DNA from: a virus
DNA: 29,760 nucleotides
Direction: 5' to 3' (one strand)
Virus record (IMG/VR): IMGVR_UViG_3300049847_000428
Coordinates: 1 to 29,760 of that record
Below the pieces are notes generated by a model, which searched no databases, was not told the origin of the DNA, and worked only from the letters and a program-made list of their open reading frames with translations. Both the position numbers and the translations under genes were made by a program. Below, piece by piece: positions 13,632 through 29,399 of the stretch. Every line of letters begins with the position of its first letter. The stretch's first letter is position 1.

Positions 13632-14054
13632 CTAAACCCCTTTTCCGTTGAACTTAGCATGATGCTCTTCAGCCTTTTCTAGCAAGTCCAATTCTTCATC
13701 GGACATAGTGGGCTTTAGCCAGTCCATCATTCCTTTGTTGGTAAAAAGCTCATCAACTTCTTTTTTGGCTAGAAGATTCTTAACACCCTGCTCTTTCGTG
13801 AGGATTCTAGGGGTAGCCAGAGTACGTTGCAAGGCCACAACTGCTAGGTTAGAAGCGGAAGCCATATTGAATGCTCGCTCGGCAAACTTCTCAGCGACCT
13901 TAGCCGTTATGTGAATCTTATCGATTCTCCCCTTTAGCTTCTGATTATTTTGAATAACTGGGAATCGAACCTCCAGATTTTGTTTCTTCTTAGAAACCCT
14001 CCACACCGCAAAGATAAGGCAGAGATCAATTATAATATTCAGCGTAAATATCAT
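13632..14054 (-). CDS. Small protein with N-terminal membrane segment between terminase and portal
   Basis: A 140-residue protein starting at ATG 14054, overlapping the terminase 3' end by 29 bases. Residues about 2-18 are strongly hydrophobic (IFTLNIIIDLCLIFAVW) followed by basic residues, the plan of a membrane anchor with a cytoplasmic C-terminus. The rest is helical: a central segment rich in Ala and Leu and an acidic C-terminal helix (SDEELDLLEKAEEHHAK). Its stop is directly followed by the portal GTG. An alternative later start would remove the hydrophobic segment, and the ribosome site for the first ATG is weak (GGAT). The function is unknown; a membrane protein at this place in a packaging operon is unusual. 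Confidence 0.65.
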   Translation of the reverse strand: MIFTLNIIIDLCLIFAVWRVSKKKQNLEVRFPVIQNNQKLKGRIDKIHITAKVAEKFAERAFNMASASNLAVVALQRTLATPRILTKEQGVKNLLAKKEVDELFTNKGMMDWLKPTMSDEELDLLEKAEEHHAKFNGKGV

Positions 14055-16530
14055 TCGAGTTTATCCATAAAGAGTTTTCTACTACGTTATTAGCCCATTC
14101 TTCCGGCGCAATTTCAATAGTCTTACTATAATTTGGCAAACCCTCGTTTAGCGTAGGGTCTGGGTTATCAACTAGCTTCCAATGCGAGATTTGCATCAGG
14201 TATTTAGCGCAATCGATTAAATGGTTGTTGATATCTGGATACCTACCCTCCTCATCAGTTACAAAAGACTCGATTTCCCACCTAAACCAATAGCATCTGT
14301 CCGATACAGTCAAGCTACCAGGATTAGTCATCAGCATTTTAATGCGAGAGATATCATCCTCTTCGTTAGAGAAGTTTTTAGCAGATGGCATAAGGGATTC
14401 GTGATAATTCGCTTGAACCTCTCTCTGAAACCAGGCAGCAGCTTCGTCGTAGATTCTTTTCCAAGTTCTTTGAGGCGCATTAGGATACAACTCTTCTTCC
14501 TTCTTTCTTATTCTTTCCCAAATTTGCCGAGTATCGGTTCTGTTTCTATCTCTTTCGTATATCTCATCAAGAACAAATATCTGTTGAGTGTACGGATTAT
14601 AAGCCGCAAAAAGCACAGCAAAACATGTGCTAGTTCCAGGGTCACAGATGGTAAACCATCTAAGCTTGTGTCTATCCCCTTCTATAAAGCTAGTTACCAC
14701 AGCATGAGGACGACAATGGGTTTTCGGATTCCACTTAGGGAACACAACATCCTCACCACCAAAGGCTAATTTACCTTCGTACTCTCTGTACCAGATAACC
14801 TCATTATCAGATTCAATTAGCTGTTTTCTCTTTTCAAGTAAAAGTTGAGCATCGTTAACGGGATTAATACTAGCGTTAAACTCATAATAACTAGAGAGAG
14901 AATCTCCGAGCTTTATTCTCTCTAGTAACTGCTCTCTGAACTCAACATAATAAGCTGAACGCTTCTTTGGTGGAGTACCGAATATAAAAAGTGCCTTGTC
15001 TTTAGATAAAAGGTTTGGCTCCATAACTTCTAAGTGGAATTCCTTAGAATGATGTTGGAACTCATCATAAATAACCAAGTCGGGCTTTACGCCGCGAAGA
15101 CCTTCGTAATTCTCGCAACCATCTACCGTAATAATAGAGCCGTTAAGGAACTCCACCTTTAAATCAGTAGTGTTTATGTCTTTTATGAATTGTGGTGGAG
15201 CGTAGTTCTGTAATCTTTTCTTATGCCAGTAGATTTTCTTCCCTTGTTTTAGTTCTGGGCAAATTATCATTACTTGGAAGTTGTCATTTAAAAGACAGGC
15301 AACATTGGCAAGAAAAAGAGCGCATTCGGTGTTGTGAGTTGGGACCAAAGACTTTCCCGCTAAGAATAAATGGGAGGGGTGATCTATTCCTATACAACGG
15401 ACAGGAACGCTAGGAACCTCATCCACCGCCACAACAGTCCTGCGATTCGCGCCTTTTCTTTTACCCAAAGCAGGGGAGAGTCTAGCCGCCTTCCTCGGCA
15501 ACCTAAAGATTTGCTGGTTGGGAATTATCTCAACAATATAAGCCAAAGAGCAGTCTTTGCCGTTACACTTAGGGATTTTTGTGTTTACAGAAACCCTCAT
15601 TCCTAAGCTCTCCGCTAGAAACTTAACACCATAAGCAATGTTTTTATTAATGTTACAAAAATTAGTTCTCCCCGTCTTACTAACATAACCGTCCGTGTCC
15701 ATTAACCCTTGAAGAAGCGCTAATCTTTGACTCGCTCCAGATAGAAGATACTTTTCTGGAATATGCTTATTTCTTTCTAATTTTAATTTTCTTATGTGGG
15801 TATGAAGGTTGCTAAATGAATATTCAAAAGCTCTTTTTGTCTTAACTACGGGATGACCAAGACGAACAAACTCTTCTACAATAAAAGGATCGTTAGAATA
15901 TAAATAACCAGCATCCTGTTTCCCATCCCCTAACCAAGCGCCAAGAACATAGGGATCTATTTCTAGTTGTTGAGGTGAAATAGAAAGAGGGGCACAAGTC
16001 GAGATGGTATGGTTATATTCTGGTCCCCAATATAAAGACTTACTAATTTCTTCCGTTGTAGAAATCTTTGGAAACCTTAGGGGAGATCGGTTAGGCATCT
16101 TCCCCTTATTTTTCTTTATCGAACTTCTAATAGATCTCGTACTCGTAACCCAGCGATGCTCTGCATCTGCTACAATCTTAGTGCCGTCATTAAAAGTAAC
16201 TTGATAACATTTGTGATCTACCATAATGGGAGATGTGGTAATAATTCTAGAAGGAGTGCCGTCTACTGCGTAAACGTAATCCCCAACCTGAACTGTTCCC
16301 ATAGTCCTCCAGCCGGTAGTAGTTAATATTGGGGTGTCCAAAGCCAGCGCCTTCCCTCCATTCCTACTCCACTGCGACATGACGACTCGCTTACCCTTAA
16401 TGAAATAATCTTTTGCAACTTGAATTTGGCCCTTATGTAACGGCCTTTTATGCACGTTGTCGAGTCTATCGTACACCGCAGTCATTATGTCTGCGTGTCT
16501 TCCTAAGATAGAGCAAGCTTCGTCGTTCAT
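14026..16530 (-). CDS. terL: Terminase large subunit, interrupted by an intein
   Basis: The precursor has 834 residues; after removal of the 340-residue intein (61-400) the mature protein has 494, a normal length for a large terminase. The N-extein ends in SQWSRNGGK and the C-extein starts with T, together forming the Walker A loop of the packaging ATPase. Walker B is DLVIYDE (484-490), the coupling motif is FGTP (517-520), and the nuclease acidic residues fit D630 (ICDPG), D694 (IYDEA) and D773 (LIDCAKYL). The enzyme pumps DNA into the head through the portal and cuts concatemers. The start ATG overlaps the small-terminase stop (ATGA). Splicing is required for ATPase function because the intein separates the catalytic Lys from the Thr that helps bind Mg-ATP. 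Confidence 0.93.
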   Translation of the reverse strand: MNDEACSILGRHADIMTAVYDRLDNVHKRPLHKGQIQVAKDYFIKGKRVVMSQWSRNGGKALALDTPILTTTGWRTMGTVQVGDYVYAVDGTPSRIITTSPIMVDHKCYQVTFNDGTKIVADAEHRWVTSTRSIRSSIKKNKGKMPNRSPLRFPKISTTEEISKSLYWGPEYNHTISTCAPLSISPQQLEIDPYVLGAWLGDGKQDAGYLYSNDPFIVEEFVRLGHPVVKTKRAFEYSFSNLHTHIRKLKLERNKHIPEKYLLSGASQRLALLQGLMDTDGYVSKTGRTNFCNINKNIAYGVKFLAESLGMRVSVNTKIPKCNGKDCSLAYIVEIIPNQQIFRLPRKAARLSPALGKRKGANRRTVVAVDEVPSVPVRCIGIDHPSHLFLAGKSLVPTHNTECALFLANVACLLNDNFQVMIICPELKQGKKIYWHKKRLQNYAPPQFIKDINTTDLKVEFLNGSIITVDGCENYEGLRGVKPDLVIYDEFQHHSKEFHLEVMEPNLLSKDKALFIFGTPPKKRSAYYVEFREQLLERIKLGDSLSSYYEFNASINPVNDAQLLLEKRKQLIESDNEVIWYREYEGKLAFGGEDVVFPKWNPKTHCRPHAVVTSFIEGDRHKLRWFTICDPGTSTCFAVLFAAYNPYTQQIFVLDEIYERDRNRTDTRQIWERIRKKEEELYPNAPQRTWKRIYDEAAAWFQREVQANYHESLMPSAKNFSNEEDDISRIKMLMTNPGSLTVSDRCYWFRWEIESFVTDEEGRYPDINNHLIDCAKYLMQISHWKLVDNPDPTLNEGLPNYSKTIEIAPEEWANNVVENSLWINSNDIYAEYYN
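15331..16350 (-). mobile_element. Class 3 (Ala1, WCT) intein with LAGLIDADG homing endonuclease
   Basis: The intein covers precursor residues 61-400. It begins with Ala (ALALDTPILTTTGWRTMG) instead of Cys or Ser and ends in His-Asn before Thr+1. Intein residue W67 (ADAEHRW, block B), C319 (VPVRCIGID, block F) and T338 (VPTHN, block G) form the Trp-Cys-Thr set that defines class 3 inteins, in which the block F Cys is the first nucleophile. Two LAGLIDADG-type motifs, LGAWLGDG (about intein 136-143) and LLQGLMDTDGY (about 212-222), with acidic residues kept, indicate a homing endonuclease that may still cut. Class assignment follows the published WCT rule; activity is inferred. Confidence 0.9.
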
Positions 16531-23911: not shown

Positions 23912-24201
23912 TTGTCGAACTCCTGCCAAGCATTCTCCGCATCGTGAGAATTTTGAACTTTTTCTAATTCTGAGGACTCAGGGGAAATATGGAACGGTGA
24001 ATCTTTTACTACCGCTTGATACCCAGCAAGGAAAGCTTCACGACGAAAAGAATTCACAACAGACGTTATAAAGTCAGTGAAAGATTCTAGTTCCTCAGAA
24101 TCAGGGTTGGGATATTTAGTTGCTCCGTTACACTGCAAGTCTGGAAACACGTACTTCATTCCAGACAGAGCTTGAGAGATTTTATTTCTTACTTCGCTCA
24201 T
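23908..24201 (-). CDS. Small helical protein, unknown
   Basis: A 97-residue protein starting at ATG 24201 with AAGGAG five bases upstream, inside the end of the preceding regulator gene. It has an N-terminal helix, a polar loop with Pro and Asn (NGATKYPNPDSEE), a central helix (FTDFITSVVNSFRREAFLAGYQ) and an acidic C-terminal helix. No known domain is recognised. It is the second gene of the leftward block. Confidence 0.6.
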   Translation of the reverse strand: MSEVRNKISQALSGMKYVFPDLQCNGATKYPNPDSEELESFTDFITSVVNSFRREAFLAGYQAVVKDSPFHISPESSELEKVQNSHDAENAWQEFDK

Positions 24202-24322
24202 CTAACTCCTTGATAATCATTGCGCGGATAAATTTCGAGAGAGACAGCCCAAGCTCCGCACACAAAACACGCAACCTCTTGTGAAGGTCTTCAGGGAAAC
24301 GAACTTGCAGAAACTTGGGCAT
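24182..24322 (-). CDS. Ribbon-helix-helix DNA-binding protein, first gene of the leftward block
   Basis: This 46-residue gene is short but well formed: ATG 24322, then a ribbon strand (KFLQVRFPEDL), helix 1 (HKRLRVLCAELG), a turn (LSLS) and helix 2 (KFIRAMIIKELDERS), ending TAA. This is the complete Arc/MetJ/CopG plan with alternating strand residues that face the DNA major groove. It has no clear Shine-Dalgarno sequence and may be leaderless or weakly translated. It overlaps the next gene by 20 bases and contains that gene's ribosome site. As first gene beside the control region, it is likely to bind palindromes there. Confidence 0.75.
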   Translation of the reverse strand: MPKFLQVRFPEDLHKRLRVLCAELGLSLSKFIRAMIIKELDERSKK

Positions 24323-24459: not shown

Positions 24460-24480
24460 GCTATGCAATTTTTGCATAGC
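24460..24480. repeat. Inverted repeat, possible operator
   Basis: GCTATGCAA (24460-24468), TTT, then TTGCATAGC (24472-24480): a perfect 9-bp inverted repeat just upstream of the first sigma-54-type promoter. The half-site word TTGCATA recurs near 24502 and 24673. It could be an operator or a binding site for an activator. It is not followed by a U-tract and so is not a terminator. Confidence 0.6.
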
Positions 24481-24679: not shown

Positions 24680-24695
24680 AGTTCCACGTGGAACA
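24680..24695. promoter_or_regulatory. parS-like palindrome (ParB binding site)
   Basis: AGTTCCACGTGGAACA contains the perfect 14-bp palindrome GTTCCACGTGGAAC (24681-24694). Chromosomal parS sites bound by ParB/Spo0J follow TGTTYCACGTGRAACA, so 15 of 16 positions match and only the first base differs. No ParB gene is seen in the window, so the host protein would be the partner. A 14-bp exact palindrome of this type is unlikely by chance, but a phage regulator with the same target is possible. Confidence 0.65.
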
Positions 24696-24893: not shown

Positions 24894-24921
24894 TTGACAT
24901 CATCTGTGCAATGTATATAAT
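24894..24921 (+). promoter_or_regulatory. Consensus sigma-70 promoter of the clamp operon
   Basis: TTGACA (24894-24899) and TATAAT (24916-24921) both match the consensus exactly, with a 16-bp spacer, one shorter than ideal. The start is predicted near 24928, giving a leader of about 46 bases to the clamp ATG. It is close enough to sigma-54 promoter 2 (start about 24845) for the two to compete or to serve different growth states. Confidence 0.85.
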
Positions 24922-24973
24922 AGAGATATGCAGTAGATTGAGACACTGCTTAATAAAGGAAACGAAGGAATAT

Positions 24974-25567
24974 ATGAACAACTTACAATATGTAGAAAGA
25001 GCAATTAGCAAGGATGAGACTAGATCCAACATGTGCCGAGTCTATAGAGACAAGAAGCATTTAGTAGCAACAGATGGCCATAGAATTCATTTTGCTAACG
25101 GACTACCAGAACTAGAGAAGGGACACTATCTAGATGGCTATGACGGCGCATTCCCATCATGGGATCAAGTAATGCCCACTGGTCCGGTAATAGCTAAAGT
25201 GGATCTCGCTATCAGCAAAGATGAGGTAAGGAAGCTTAAGGCAGTTATTAACTTTGCATTTAAAGTGTTGAATGATCGCAATATTACTTGCAAGTTTAGA
25301 TTCGAGAAGAATCAACTTCTAGTAACAGCTCAAGATAAGCAATGTAACCTTTGCACCATAGCGCTAGATTTTCGCTACGAATCAAACATTCCACTAGATA
25401 AGCCAATAGAATTAGCATTAAACGCTCAATACTTCTTAGACGCTACGGAGCCACAAAAGGACATGTTTAATGTGGTAGTTAGCCTTGAGCTTCGAGGCGC
25501 AACCGAGGGCATCTTGATAACTGTACCAATGGGCAAAGCAATCGTAATGCCTATGCGTATGATTTAA
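24974..25567 (+). CDS. Shortened beta sliding-clamp (DnaN-like) protein
   Basis: The start is ATG 24974, after AAAGGAAACGAAGGAATAT; the frame also opens earlier at 24911, inside the promoter zone. The 197-residue protein matches landmarks of bacterial DnaN in order: LVATDGHRI (30-38, DnaN TVATDGHRL), GAFPSWDQVMP (58-68, DnaN GRFPDYRRVLP), NQLLVTAQD (113-121, DnaN NQLKITANN), YFLDAT (153-158, DnaN YVLDVL) and VMPMRMI (191-197, DnaN VVMPMRL end). DnaN has about 366 residues and three domains. Here domain I and about half of domain II are missing, leaving about one and a half domains. It probably tethers or regulates a DNA polymerase, or interferes with the host clamp. It leads the rightward operon. 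Confidence 0.8.
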   Translation: MNNLQYVERAISKDETRSNMCRVYRDKKHLVATDGHRIHFANGLPELEKGHYLDGYDGAFPSWDQVMPTGPVIAKVDLAISKDEVRKLKAVINFAFKVLNDRNITCKFRFEKNQLLVTAQDKQCNLCTIALDFRYESNIPLDKPIELALNAQYFLDATEPQKDMFNVVVSLELRGATEGILITVPMGKAIVMPMRMI

Positions 25568-25644: not shown

Positions 25645-26118
25645 ATGATTACAAACAAACAAAGAACATTAATCAAAGAGACTTGGAGCGACATAGAATA
25701 CCACCTCGATAATATCGACTGGACACACTACGCGAAAAACATGCTTGAAGTCTGCCTAGAGGAGTCAAAGCGACATGATAGGTTCAGATCGGACGGAATA
25801 TTTCGCGGTTTAACGGTCTTAGAGGAAGCAAAATACTTTGCAATCAAGAGACTCTGGGAATACAGAAACGGACAAGAGCATTTAAAAATCGAACATTATT
25901 TAATGACTCAAAAGAGCTGTTTTAATGCCGCTTGTATTATGACTAGTGATCGCTTTAAGGAAGCTAGGGAGAAGATATTAAAACTAAGAAGCGAGGACAT
26001 GGAAACCATCGCACTCTGGGACTACTGCGATCTAATTCACGCCGAAAAACTATCCCCAGGCTACACGCTAGACTCTAGGCGTGGTTTTAAGCGCTCGCCT
26101 GTAAGCAAGGAGGCATAA
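25645..26118 (+). CDS. Helical protein of unknown function
   Basis: A 157-residue protein that starts at ATG 25645 after two tandem AAAGGAAA/AAAGGAAACG ribosome-site-like words. It is helix-rich and mixed in charge, with aromatic clusters (ETWSDIEYHLDNIDWTHYAKN, EAKYFAIKRLWEYRNG) and a Cys-containing central part (SCFNAACIM). The C-terminal 20 residues are basic. No domain or catalytic motif is recognised. Cotranscription with the clamp suggests a role in DNA replication or host takeover, but that is guilt by association only. Confidence 0.65.
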   Translation: MITNKQRTLIKETWSDIEYHLDNIDWTHYAKNMLEVCLEESKRHDRFRSDGIFRGLTVLEEAKYFAIKRLWEYRNGQEHLKIEHYLMTQKSCFNAACIMTSDRFKEAREKILKLRSEDMETIALWDYCDLIHAEKLSPGYTLDSRRGFKRSPVSKEA

Positions 26119-27149: not shown

Positions 27150-27164
27150 AGCCTAGCTTTTACA

Positions 27165-27205
27165 TGTTTCCACTCTCTCTCTTAAGAGAGAGAGAGATGG
27201 AAACA
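27165..27205. repeat. Long palindrome with 22-bp perfect core
   Basis: The core at 27173-27194 is a perfect 22-bp palindrome made of CT and AG dinucleotide repeats around TTAA. It is flanked by the inverted pair TGTTTCCA (27165-27172) and TGGAAACA (27198-27205), with three extra bases (AGA) on the right. The whole can fold into a near-complete 19-bp hairpin on either strand. It sits at the left end of the TGGAAACA array and could be an origin hairpin or a transcription boundary. Confidence 0.75.
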
Positions 27206-27385
27206 TTTGTATAAAATCTGCGGTGTTGGAAACACGCTTTGGAAACATTTTGGAAACATTGCCCATAAGTCCTTGATTTTATTAACCCACTTGGAAACAT
27301 CACTTGGAAACATTTTGGAAACATTTTCGCTATAAATGTTTCCAAGCCCCAAAAAACGAAAGATCGAAGGATACAACTGGAAACA
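27198..27385. repeat. Iteron-like array of TGGAAACA, candidate replication origin
   Basis: TGGAAACA occurs in direct orientation at 27198, 27227, 27240, 27251, 27292, 27305, 27316 and 27378, and inverted at 27337. The triplet 27227/27240/27251 and the triplet 27292/27305/27316 both have spacings of 13 and 11 bp, so a three-copy unit has been duplicated 65 bp apart. One more inverted copy lies at 27564 inside the helicase gene. Arrays of this kind are bound by initiator proteins at replication origins, or by repressors. It lies between converging operons and next to primase-helicase genes. The stretch 26990-27398 otherwise holds the terminator and the possible small gene. Confidence 0.8.
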
Positions 27386-27398
27386 CTGTTTGATTATT

Positions 27399-28931
27399 TT
27401 AAAACATATCATCTGGGACTCTCTCAGACTCCCTTACTTTCTTCCTTTGGCCTAAATACTTAGATACTGTCCCTCTAGTCGTCTTTAGCGCTTCCACGAT
27501 CTCCTTGTTCGAGTACCCTTGATCTTCTAAGTTCCAGACCTGCTCTTTTAATGTTTCCTCAATTGTTTCCACTTCCCACTTGTGGGTATTTGCTGTTTGC
27601 ATGACGAGTTTGGCCGTAAAGGGTACAGCGTCCTTGCCTAACATGTTTCGCTTCTTCTCAAACCGAACCTCGAAACAAGCTCCGTTTTCATCGTTGTACC
27701 CTGGGGGTGTAGTCAATTTCATTACAGTGTCCATGATGTCCTCTCTTTTGGAAGTCCCTCTTTGACCACCGGACTTTCCGCTATGGTGTATGAAAATTAT
27801 AGTTCTACCCTCTTTCTTATGCTTTAAAGCCCACTCTTGAACTAGGTTCCAAGAATCAGCATCATTCTCCTTGGCGTCACCACGAACTAAGCAGCTCAAA
27901 TTATCGACAATTATAACTTCAGTCTCTTTTAAAAGAGCGTCTATTTGTTCCTGTCCCTCTACGCTTGCCAAGTTGGGCATACCAGACGGCTGTAAGTCTG
28001 GGGTAATGAATTCTAGTGCCTCTGGGACGGTTTTAGAGTCTGACGAGTCTATTATGGTCCTCATGCGAGCCTGTAGTTCTGTTACGGCCAACTCTCCGTC
28101 TATGTATATAACCCTTACTTGCTTAGACGCTTGCCAGCCAAGGAAACTCCCTTGGGTAGCTAGTGCATGAGCAATACCAAACGCCATATGGGTCTTACCC
28201 GTTCCTCGCCACGCATGAATCATGTTAACAGATTGTTTTAGTAGCCAGGGGAGATACTTTTCACGCTCTGGGAAGGTTGTTTCTAATAAAGCTTGAGCTG
28301 ATATCTTATTGAATTTATTTGTTTTGATTATGTTTGTGGCTGGAATATCACACAAAGGAACATCCTTTAGAGTCTTTAAAGGATTAGCTGCTATCCAATC
28401 AGCACAATCCTGCCTATTCACTAGCTGTAACTTTGAAGTATCTACCTGCATTAGTGTGCAACCAAGCGGGAGCAAGTGCTTAGCTATTGTCTGAACGTAT
28501 TCCGCTGCCTCTGGCCCTATATCCGGCCAAATTATTATTGATTTGTTAGCTAGTGGCCTCCAGTTTGCAGAGTTAAGAGTTTTAGATCCCCCCGTTGTCG
28601 TGACGACACAACCTAATGCGCTTAACTTATCAGCCTTTAGCTCTCCCTCAACTATCCACACTTCGCTAGCAGATTCTAGTAGTGGCTCGTTATAGAGAGG
28701 ATCTCCACTCTCAAACTTTGGTTTAAGTTTTATTATCTTCCCGTCGATAGATTCGTGTATAAAAGGACAGTGCTTTGCCCCTGTCTGATAATTCTTAAAT
28801 CGTGCCTTATAGTAATAAGGCTTATCTTTTCCGAGGTATGGGAATAAACCCTCAAAGCGATAGCCGTCTTTTAGTAAATAAGAATAACTAGCCTTAACAA
28901 ACTCTTTGATATTGTCAGGAATTAAAATCAT
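27399..28931 (-). CDS. Primase-helicase: TOPRIM-like plus RecA-type helicase plus HTH
   Basis: A 510-residue protein. Residues about 88-180 look TOPRIM-like: VWIVEGELKA (91-100), IIIWPDIG (132-139) and DCADW (175-179). The usual second Asp of the TOPRIM DxD motif is Gly here (PDIG), so metal-dependent priming may be reduced. Residues 230-410 are a RepA/AAA_25-like ATPase with Walker A WRGTGKTH (241-248), Walker B VIIVDNLS (339-346) and IIFIHHSGKSGGQRGTSK (378-395). A C-terminal HTH (YSNKEIVEALKTTRGTVSKY, 473-492) could bind DNA, perhaps the repeats just downstream. The start overlaps the zinc-finger gene stop as ATGA, suggesting coupled synthesis. Confidence 0.85.
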   Translation of the reverse strand: MILIPDNIKEFVKASYSYLLKDGYRFEGLFPYLGKDKPYYYKARFKNYQTGAKHCPFIHESIDGKIIKLKPKFESGDPLYNEPLLESASEVWIVEGELKADKLSALGCVVTTTGGSKTLNSANWRPLANKSIIIWPDIGPEAAEYVQTIAKHLLPLGCTLMQVDTSKLQLVNRQDCADWIAANPLKTLKDVPLCDIPATNIIKTNKFNKISAQALLETTFPEREKYLPWLLKQSVNMIHAWRGTGKTHMAFGIAHALATQGSFLGWQASKQVRVIYIDGELAVTELQARMRTIIDSSDSKTVPEALEFITPDLQPSGMPNLASVEGQEQIDALLKETEVIIVDNLSCLVRGDAKENDADSWNLVQEWALKHKKEGRTIIFIHHSGKSGGQRGTSKREDIMDTVMKLTTPPGYNDENGACFEVRFEKKRNMLGKDAVPFTAKLVMQTANTHKWEVETIEETLKEQVWNLEDQGYSNKEIVEALKTTRGTVSKYLGQRKKVRESERVPDDMF

Positions 28932-29209
28932 TTAATAAATTCCTTTTGAAGAATCTTTATTGTTGTTGGAAAATCTTGGCTCCAGGCTCTCATAGCAAAC
29001 GCTATTATATCCTGGCCCTTAGCATCACATGCGAAGCATTTAAACGCGCCAGTCTTTGTGTTGATAAAAAAATTCCCCTTGTGCTGGTCGTTGTGAAATG
29101 GGCATAAACCAGCAGGGCACCAATCAGAACTCTTGTGTGAATTAATTGATAATTCTTTTTCGTAGAATTGAATAGGGCTTATTTTAGCCTTTATTTGCTC
29201 GGCTCTCAT
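28928..29209 (-). CDS. Primase zinc-finger (CHC2-type) protein
   Basis: I place the start at ATG 29209 because GAGG lies nine bases upstream (the frame opens at 29230, seven codons earlier). The 93-residue protein has CPFH (36-39) and CFAC (58-61) with a TGAFKCFACDAKGQDIIAF segment, the C-x2-H / C-x2-C zinc site of DnaG and T7-type primases that recognises the priming site. It has no catalytic domain. With the TOPRIM-helicase encoded next, it would form a split primase-helicase. The gene overlaps the HTH gene by 26 bases and the next gene by four. Confidence 0.85.
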   Translation of the reverse strand: MRAEQIKAKISPIQFYEKELSINSHKSSDWCPAGLCPFHNDQHKGNFFINTKTGAFKCFACDAKGQDIIAFAMRAWSQDFPTTIKILQKEFIK

Positions 29210-29399
29210 TGCGAACTTCCTCATTAGCATTGTGTAATGTTTCGAGAGTAAGCCACTTAAAAGCTTTCAGTAACTTGCTCCAGTGCTTGTGAGGTATTCC
29301 ACGATTGAGCCATTGCTCAACTGCATACTGATTGCAATTAACCTTGAGTGCAATTTTTATACTGCCCCCAGCTTTTTCAAATATATCCGGCATTTTCAT
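29184..29399 (-). CDS. Cro-like helix-turn-helix protein
   Basis: A 71-residue protein whose residues about 4-45 fit the Cro/YdaS plan: FEKAGGSIKIALKVNCNQYAVEQWLNRGIPHKHW, with the recognition helix near AVEQWLNRGIP. It is the first gene of the leftward replication operon and faces a divergent gene at 29487. A palindrome lies between the two (29422-29450), so autoregulation and control of both genes is likely. There is no clear Shine-Dalgarno sequence before ATG 29399. Regulation is inferred from position. Confidence 0.75.
   Translation of the reverse strand: MKMPDIFEKAGGSIKIALKVNCNQYAVEQWLNRGIPHKHWSKLLKAFKWLTLETLHNANEEVRNESRANKG

Follow-up and report, generated by a model that had tools for sequence, protein, structure and literature searches.

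Bacterial sliding clamps (DnaN, or beta clamps) are pseudo-D6 rings of twelve half-units with radial twofolds, in which each domain is a pseudo-twofold pair. Bacterial polymerases, the delta subunit of the clamp loader and repair proteins hold the clamp by clamp-binding motifs, which are short tails of the QLxLF type. Each DnaN subunit has three complete domains (six half-units) and dimerises head to tail through I78 and F106 of domain I and I272 and L273 of domain III (E. coli numbering, used throughout), while the trimeric clamps PCNA and T4 gp45 have two complete domains per subunit. Ringless, positively charged processivity factors with a clamp fold also exist, namely UL42 and UL44 (review PMC9690074).

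Short relatives of DnaN have also been recorded in phages. One layout, which lacks domain I and half-unit II.2 of domain II, is already represented by phrog_6615 (labelled 'DNA polymerase') and by GenBank entries of several cultured phages, under names such as 'DNA polymerase III subunit beta' and 'PolIII beta clamp subunit'. No characterised short phage DnaN relative was found in the literature searched. The protein described here joins this known, uncharacterised phage clamp family, and its layout is therefore not new.

The gene lies on a linear viral record of 29,760 bases (IMGVR_UViG_3300049847_000428), probably a fragment, all of which was analysed and is called the window below. It spans 24974-25567 (+ strand) and encodes 197 residues, with the open frame, start, length and DnaN landmarks (TDGHR, FPxxxxVMP, NQLxxTA and MPMR) that the sequence-only reading had noted. 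A likely ribosome binding site, GAAGGA, precedes the ATG at 24974 (24964-24969, +). Another ATG at 24911 would give 218 residues; because it falls within a sigma-70-type promoter match (TTGACA-16-TATAAT; 24894-24921, +), 24974 appears the likelier start. The sequence-only reading placed the gene first under the strongest promoter of the window. With spacers of 16 and 17 tried, no other TTGACA/TATAAT box in the window matches at 12/12, but agreement with a consensus is no proof of promoter strength. The long non-coding stretch upstream of the gene holds inverted repeats GCTATGCAATTTTTGCATAGC and GTTCCACGTGGAAC (24460-24480 and 24681-24694), which are possible operators, and is flanked by a 46-residue ORF on the minus strand (MPKFLQVRFPEDLHKRLRVLCAELGLSLSKFIRAMIIKELDERSKK, 24182-24322) that reads like a ribbon-helix-helix regulator.

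The relationship to DnaN was recovered by several profile searches. As a single sequence, the 197-residue protein matched the Pfam models of domain III and (first half) of domain II at E-values of 8e-4 and 0.068, both below the curated cut-offs. NCBIfam dnaN TIGR00663 gave 1e-5 (residues 57-195 against positions 238-366 of 367) and the full-length clamp family phrog_947 gave 4.6e-12, while phrog_6615 matched end to end at 1.2e-9 (residues 7-196 against 13-213 of 214 positions). A profile built from the window protein and two viral-contig relatives (33-36% identical), with no full-length DnaN included, found the beta clamp 7rzm as its best PDB match (E 3.3e-10), with separate stretches aligned to the start of domain II and to domain III of PDB clamps. 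These searches rule out chance similarity of three short motifs as the source of the landmarks. Identity to DnaN is low (20-29%), but, judged by these comparisons, the product is a true DnaN homologue above chance, and it shares with bacterial DnaN (TIGR00663, PF02767/PF02768) half-unit II.1, domain III, pocket residues and the predicted fold.

Alignment to E. coli DnaN covers II.1, the linker, III.1 and III.2, i.e. three of the six half-units, as the sequence-only reading had counted; domain I and II.2 are missing. Residues 1-43 (24974-25102, +) correspond to II.1 without its first strand and include R17 (R152), M20 (L155) and T33, H36, R37 and I38 of TDGHRI (T172-L177). The predicted strands here run over residues 24-26, 29-33 and 37-42, of which the first (strand B) is short. 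A short bridge, residues 44-69 (25103-25180, +), replaces II.2 and ends in FPSWDQVMP (F241-P249), so that 21-22 residues separate TDGHR from FP in proteins of this layout, whereas most full-length DnaN proteins in the comparison have about 56-76 there. In the model, half-unit III.1 (residues 70-137; 25181-25384, +) carries a basic helix at residues 82-99, a region with a net charge of +3 against 0 in E. coli. Half-unit III.2 (residues 138-197; 25385-25564, +), placed by alignment and model, supplies NAQY (N320/Y323) and IVMPMR (V360-R365). With one and a half domains, the protein thus has neither the three of bacterial DnaN nor the two of PCNA and T4 gp45.

AlphaFold2 predicted a clamp fold for the monomer (pLDDT 91, pTM 0.86) from a 27-row alignment that included DnaN rows. 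A control alignment of three short relatives only, without DnaN rows, gave a pLDDT of 35, and the model is therefore not independent of the sequence homology. Only bacterial beta clamps were among the 50 PDB matches listed by Foldseek, with TM-scores on the query of about 0.62-0.73; the best match had an E-value of 1.7e-9 and a TM-score of about 0.7 on the query. A close structure match also linked the protein to the PolIII beta-like processivity factor of Bacillus phage Sam46, a short beta-type clamp (217 aa, BFVD; E 4.3e-9, TM 0.73/0.67). The replication module described for Sam46 consists of an initiator, a loader and a helicase, like that of SPP1 (PMC8190038).

Scanning the DNA of viral contigs for the pattern VATDGHRxH, followed by further searches, yielded a family of such proteins that falls into three types. 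Type A, which lacks II.2, comprises the window protein, the viral-contig proteins L054, L055 and L056 (partial), and those of the cultured phages Staphylococcus SPbeta-like (gp017), Geobacillus E3 (gp175), Bacillus Silence (gp47), Microcystis MaeS, Leuconostoc 1-A4 (gp4) and Lactobacillus LfeInf. The cultured members of phrog_6615 (those of the SPbeta-like phage, E3, Silence and 1-A4) have the same layout of II.1, linker and domain III, without domain I and II.2. For example, SPbeta-like gp017 (YP_009226693.1) matches phrog_6615 at 2.4e-65, and hhalign places it collinear with the window group (15-195 against 29-225, E 2.8e-7). Layout and end-to-end match thus put the window protein in phrog_6615, although the proteins of this family are only about 20% identical to it and the cultured ones mostly have TDSH where the window group has TDGHR. 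Type B (L003, L027, L039, L051, L052, L062, L063 and Shewanella SppYZU01 gp33) resembles the window protein in keeping II.1, linker, III.2 and the pocket and in having lost II.2, but differs in an N-terminal extension and in the loss of much of III.1; some type B phages have PolA. Type C, which is phrog_3007 and was matched in 167 phage records, likewise groups short DnaN relatives from phages that have retained the pocket, but here II.2 is present and nearly all of III.1 is absent. All three types share the pieces from which the peptide pocket is formed (II.1, linker and III.2), while the ring pieces lost differ.

Annotation of these proteins is uneven. The label of phrog_3007 is 'RusA-like Holliday junction resolvase', yet the members tested are short DnaN relatives (listed members: L005, L006, L008, L015, L017, L045, L049 and L059). 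L008, for instance, matches phrog_3007 at 3.9e-30, the DnaN family PHROG 947 at 7.9e-17 and TIGR00663 at 1.3e-14. The label has been copied into other records, such as that of Sodalis phage SO-1. A clamp-RusA fusion, as the label might suggest, was rejected, since the alignment shows a short clamp. Searching phages with the window protein by tblastn gave nothing below 0.01, and phage matches needed a hand-made consensus of three relatives. Several candidates were set aside: the first viral-contig match (L001) lies antisense to a tail gene and is due to chance, many of the matches to the consensus (Rhizobium 16-3, RR1-A, RHph_X2_25, AmM-1 and Mae-JY04) are ordinary DnaN of 349-402 aa, and a seemingly short Deinococcus plasmid match is a full 360-aa DnaN.

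Among the 18 published residues of the peptide pocket of the beta clamp (PMC11139829), 13 are identical in the alignment to E. coli DnaN (R152, T172, G174, H175, R176, P242, V247, N320, Y323, M362, P363, M364 and R365), three are conservatively changed (L155M, L177I and V360I) and two differ (R246Q and V344T); the cleft residues of domain III are thus kept. When nine diverse type A proteins are compared, conservation is highest at P363, Y323, P242, H175, P249, R365, T172, N320, D173, F241 and R152, nearly all of which belong to the pocket. In a permutation test that excluded the TDGHR columns, which had served as search bait for part of the set, pocket columns were more conserved than the rest in type A (p 5e-5, and the same with cultured phages only), type B (p 0.003) and type C (p 2e-4). 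This makes it very improbable that the protein is a remnant without function, left by the decay of a full-length phage DnaN, although half of it is missing and its identity to DnaN is low. Such a remnant would also fit poorly with an open frame behind a consensus promoter and ribosome site, with orthologues at 31-36% identity in which the pocket columns are specifically conserved, and with a layout that recurs in phages of Staphylococcus, Bacillus, Geobacillus, Leuconostoc and Microcystis. Full-length, ring-forming DnaN conserves the pocket equally strongly, so pocket conservation alone is no sign of ringlessness; the case for ringlessness comes from the parts lost.

The surroundings of the gene include replication genes. 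The next gene in the rightward run (25645-26118, +; 157 aa) has no family match in Pfam or PHROGs. Further on, the minus strand encodes a helicase/primase-type AAA_25 protein (27399-28931; Pfam AAA_25 6.8e-22, phrog_239 2.7e-20) and a CHC2 zinc-finger primase piece (28928-29230; Pfam Zn_ribbon_DnaG 1.1e-11). The stretch that separates the helicase gene from the early genes has, at 27161-27392, many copies of TTGGAAACA(TTT), direct and inverted, including two 35-nt copies at 89% and several perfect inverted arms; this array looks like an iteron-type replication origin or an operator array. Elsewhere in the window, an 834-residue ORF (14026-16530, minus strand), which by eye reads as a large terminase, has an insert resembling an intein, in which a LAGLIDADG homing endonuclease is recognised (Pfam Hom_end 1.5e-7 at residues 261-335, LAGLIDADG_3 3.7e-6). 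In two related contigs (G001, 38 kb; G002, 30 kb), the clamp gene also lies in the early region, near divergent genes with weak HTH_3-like matches (9610-9873 in L054 and 4562-4858 in L055). Both contigs encode AAA_25 helicases, and a DUF3799 nuclease occurs in L054.

A phage polymerase with a clamp-binding motif, for which these genomes were searched, was not found in the partial window record or in its two near relatives. Neither PolA, PolB nor Pol III alpha was detected in the three (G000, G001 and G002; the window record is itself a fragment), and their proteins contained 0, 2 and 0 clamp-binding motifs against 2-4 expected by chance. The partner of the clamp is therefore probably a host protein. 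Depletion of such motifs in type A phage proteomes was also considered and dropped, as the count is too small (checked against reversed motifs and other loci). Two cultured phages are different in this respect. The short clamp gene of Leuconostoc 1-A4 lies 8 nt ahead of a DNA polymerase gene, an arrangement not found for the window group, and in Shewanella SppYZU01 (L081, 3995-7023) the type B gene gp33, annotated as hypothetical, overlaps a DNA polymerase gene by 4 nt; the SppYZU01 polymerase has no clamp-binding motif of the forms searched. This adjacency is easier to reconcile with a replisome part than with a decoy. A further lead is the presence of anti-restriction genes near three type A relatives: ArdC adjoins the clamp gene in L055, ArdA lies a few genes away in the Staphylococcus SPbeta-like phage, and an 'antirestriction protein' gene adjoins it in Microcystis MaeS.

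Without domain I, which supplies one side of the known dimer interface, the window protein cannot close a canonical ring. The domain III side is not clearly lost: I272 and L273 align with K and V in the window protein, but some of the full-length DnaN compared likewise have K at 272. The sequence-only reading had proposed that four copies could close a ring of another kind, and such a true sliding clamp of new stoichiometry, used by host Pol III at the phage fork, appears unlikely. Four copies of three half-units would complete the twelve-unit ring with D2 symmetry and two identical faces, II.1 pairing with the II.1' of a neighbour to rebuild a domain and III facing III' in a head-to-head contact. 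The count of three comes from sequence and model, and the known clamp fold suggests that a pseudo-D6 ring can be divided into four threes with D2. Consistent with this, the lost first strand of II.1 would belong, by the known topology, to the same sheet that lost the II.2 strands, net charges of +3, +3 and +5 (0 in E. coli) make the III.1 helix, which would line the pore, basic in the window protein, L054 and L055, and the genes of 1-A4 and (type B) SppYZU01 adjoin polymerase genes. Against it stand the absence of the canonical I-III' interface and the remodelling of II.1, in which strand 24-26 is short in the model and all four type A sequences from viral contigs have R at the position of F160 (YR[DE]), unlike a buried sandwich core. 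Nor is the helix basic in all cultured relatives (-5 in MaeS, -1 in the SPbeta-like protein), and types B and C keep about two and three units in other combinations, which leaves no common ring count for short clamps. The fuller proposal of a D2 ring of four three-unit subunits, on whose two like faces host polymerase and loader could dock from either side, is improbable; if it is true, no earlier clamp, as far as known here, has lacked a polar face.

The same basic helix could instead serve a ringless factor of the herpesvirus UL42 type, in which the pocket would hold a polymerase tail while the helix touches DNA, with no ring and no loader. Besides the precedent of UL42 and UL44, charge speaks for such a factor: net values lie between 0 and +3 in eight of the nine type A proteins, where domains II-III of E. 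coli DnaN have -8, and in the window group the III.1 helix is basic. Two cultured phages also have polymerase neighbours. However, the whole window protein, at +1, is far from strongly basic, LfeInf has a charge of -11 (with a start possibly annotated too late) and MaeS has an acidic helix, so basicity does not extend to all relatives. Nor was a polymerase of their own found in the window's phage and its two relatives. A UL42-like role appears unlikely.

The explanation that we favour, tentatively and at a little under an even chance, is that the pocket captures host replication proteins by their clamp-binding motifs, probably with no canonical ring. The protein would be a beta-clamp remnant selected for this pocket, expressed early from the strong promoter-like site and occupying the tail of the host replicase or of its loader. 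Host Pol III would then either be recruited to the phage fork or be kept from the host's own clamp; a decoy for host motifs, the other suggestion of the sequence-only reading, is compatible with the evidence. Binding, a host target, ringlessness and either outcome are inferred. In favour of this explanation, types A, B and C have shed II.2, II.2 with much of III.1, and nearly all of III.1, respectively, yet all keep the parts of the pocket. The early position of the gene and the nearby anti-restriction genes of three relatives also count for this explanation. Supporting it further, delta has an affinity about 50 times higher for a monomeric beta variant than for the dimer (PMC11139829), and a ringless pocket could therefore compete well. 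Against this explanation, the window protein retains III.1, which the pocket does not need. A phage clamp, Adephagia gp35, has been reported to be toxic (PMC11373665), but at 402 aa it is full length and was rejected as a direct precedent.

In summary, short DnaN relatives are common in phages and loosely annotated, for instance as 'DNA polymerase' or 'RusA-like resolvase'. Three layouts keep the pocket while losing different parts of the ring, which makes the choice between ringless capture of host replication proteins and rings of odd stoichiometry a testable question. A ringless pocket, if true, would be a natural tool for research on how phages take over replication.
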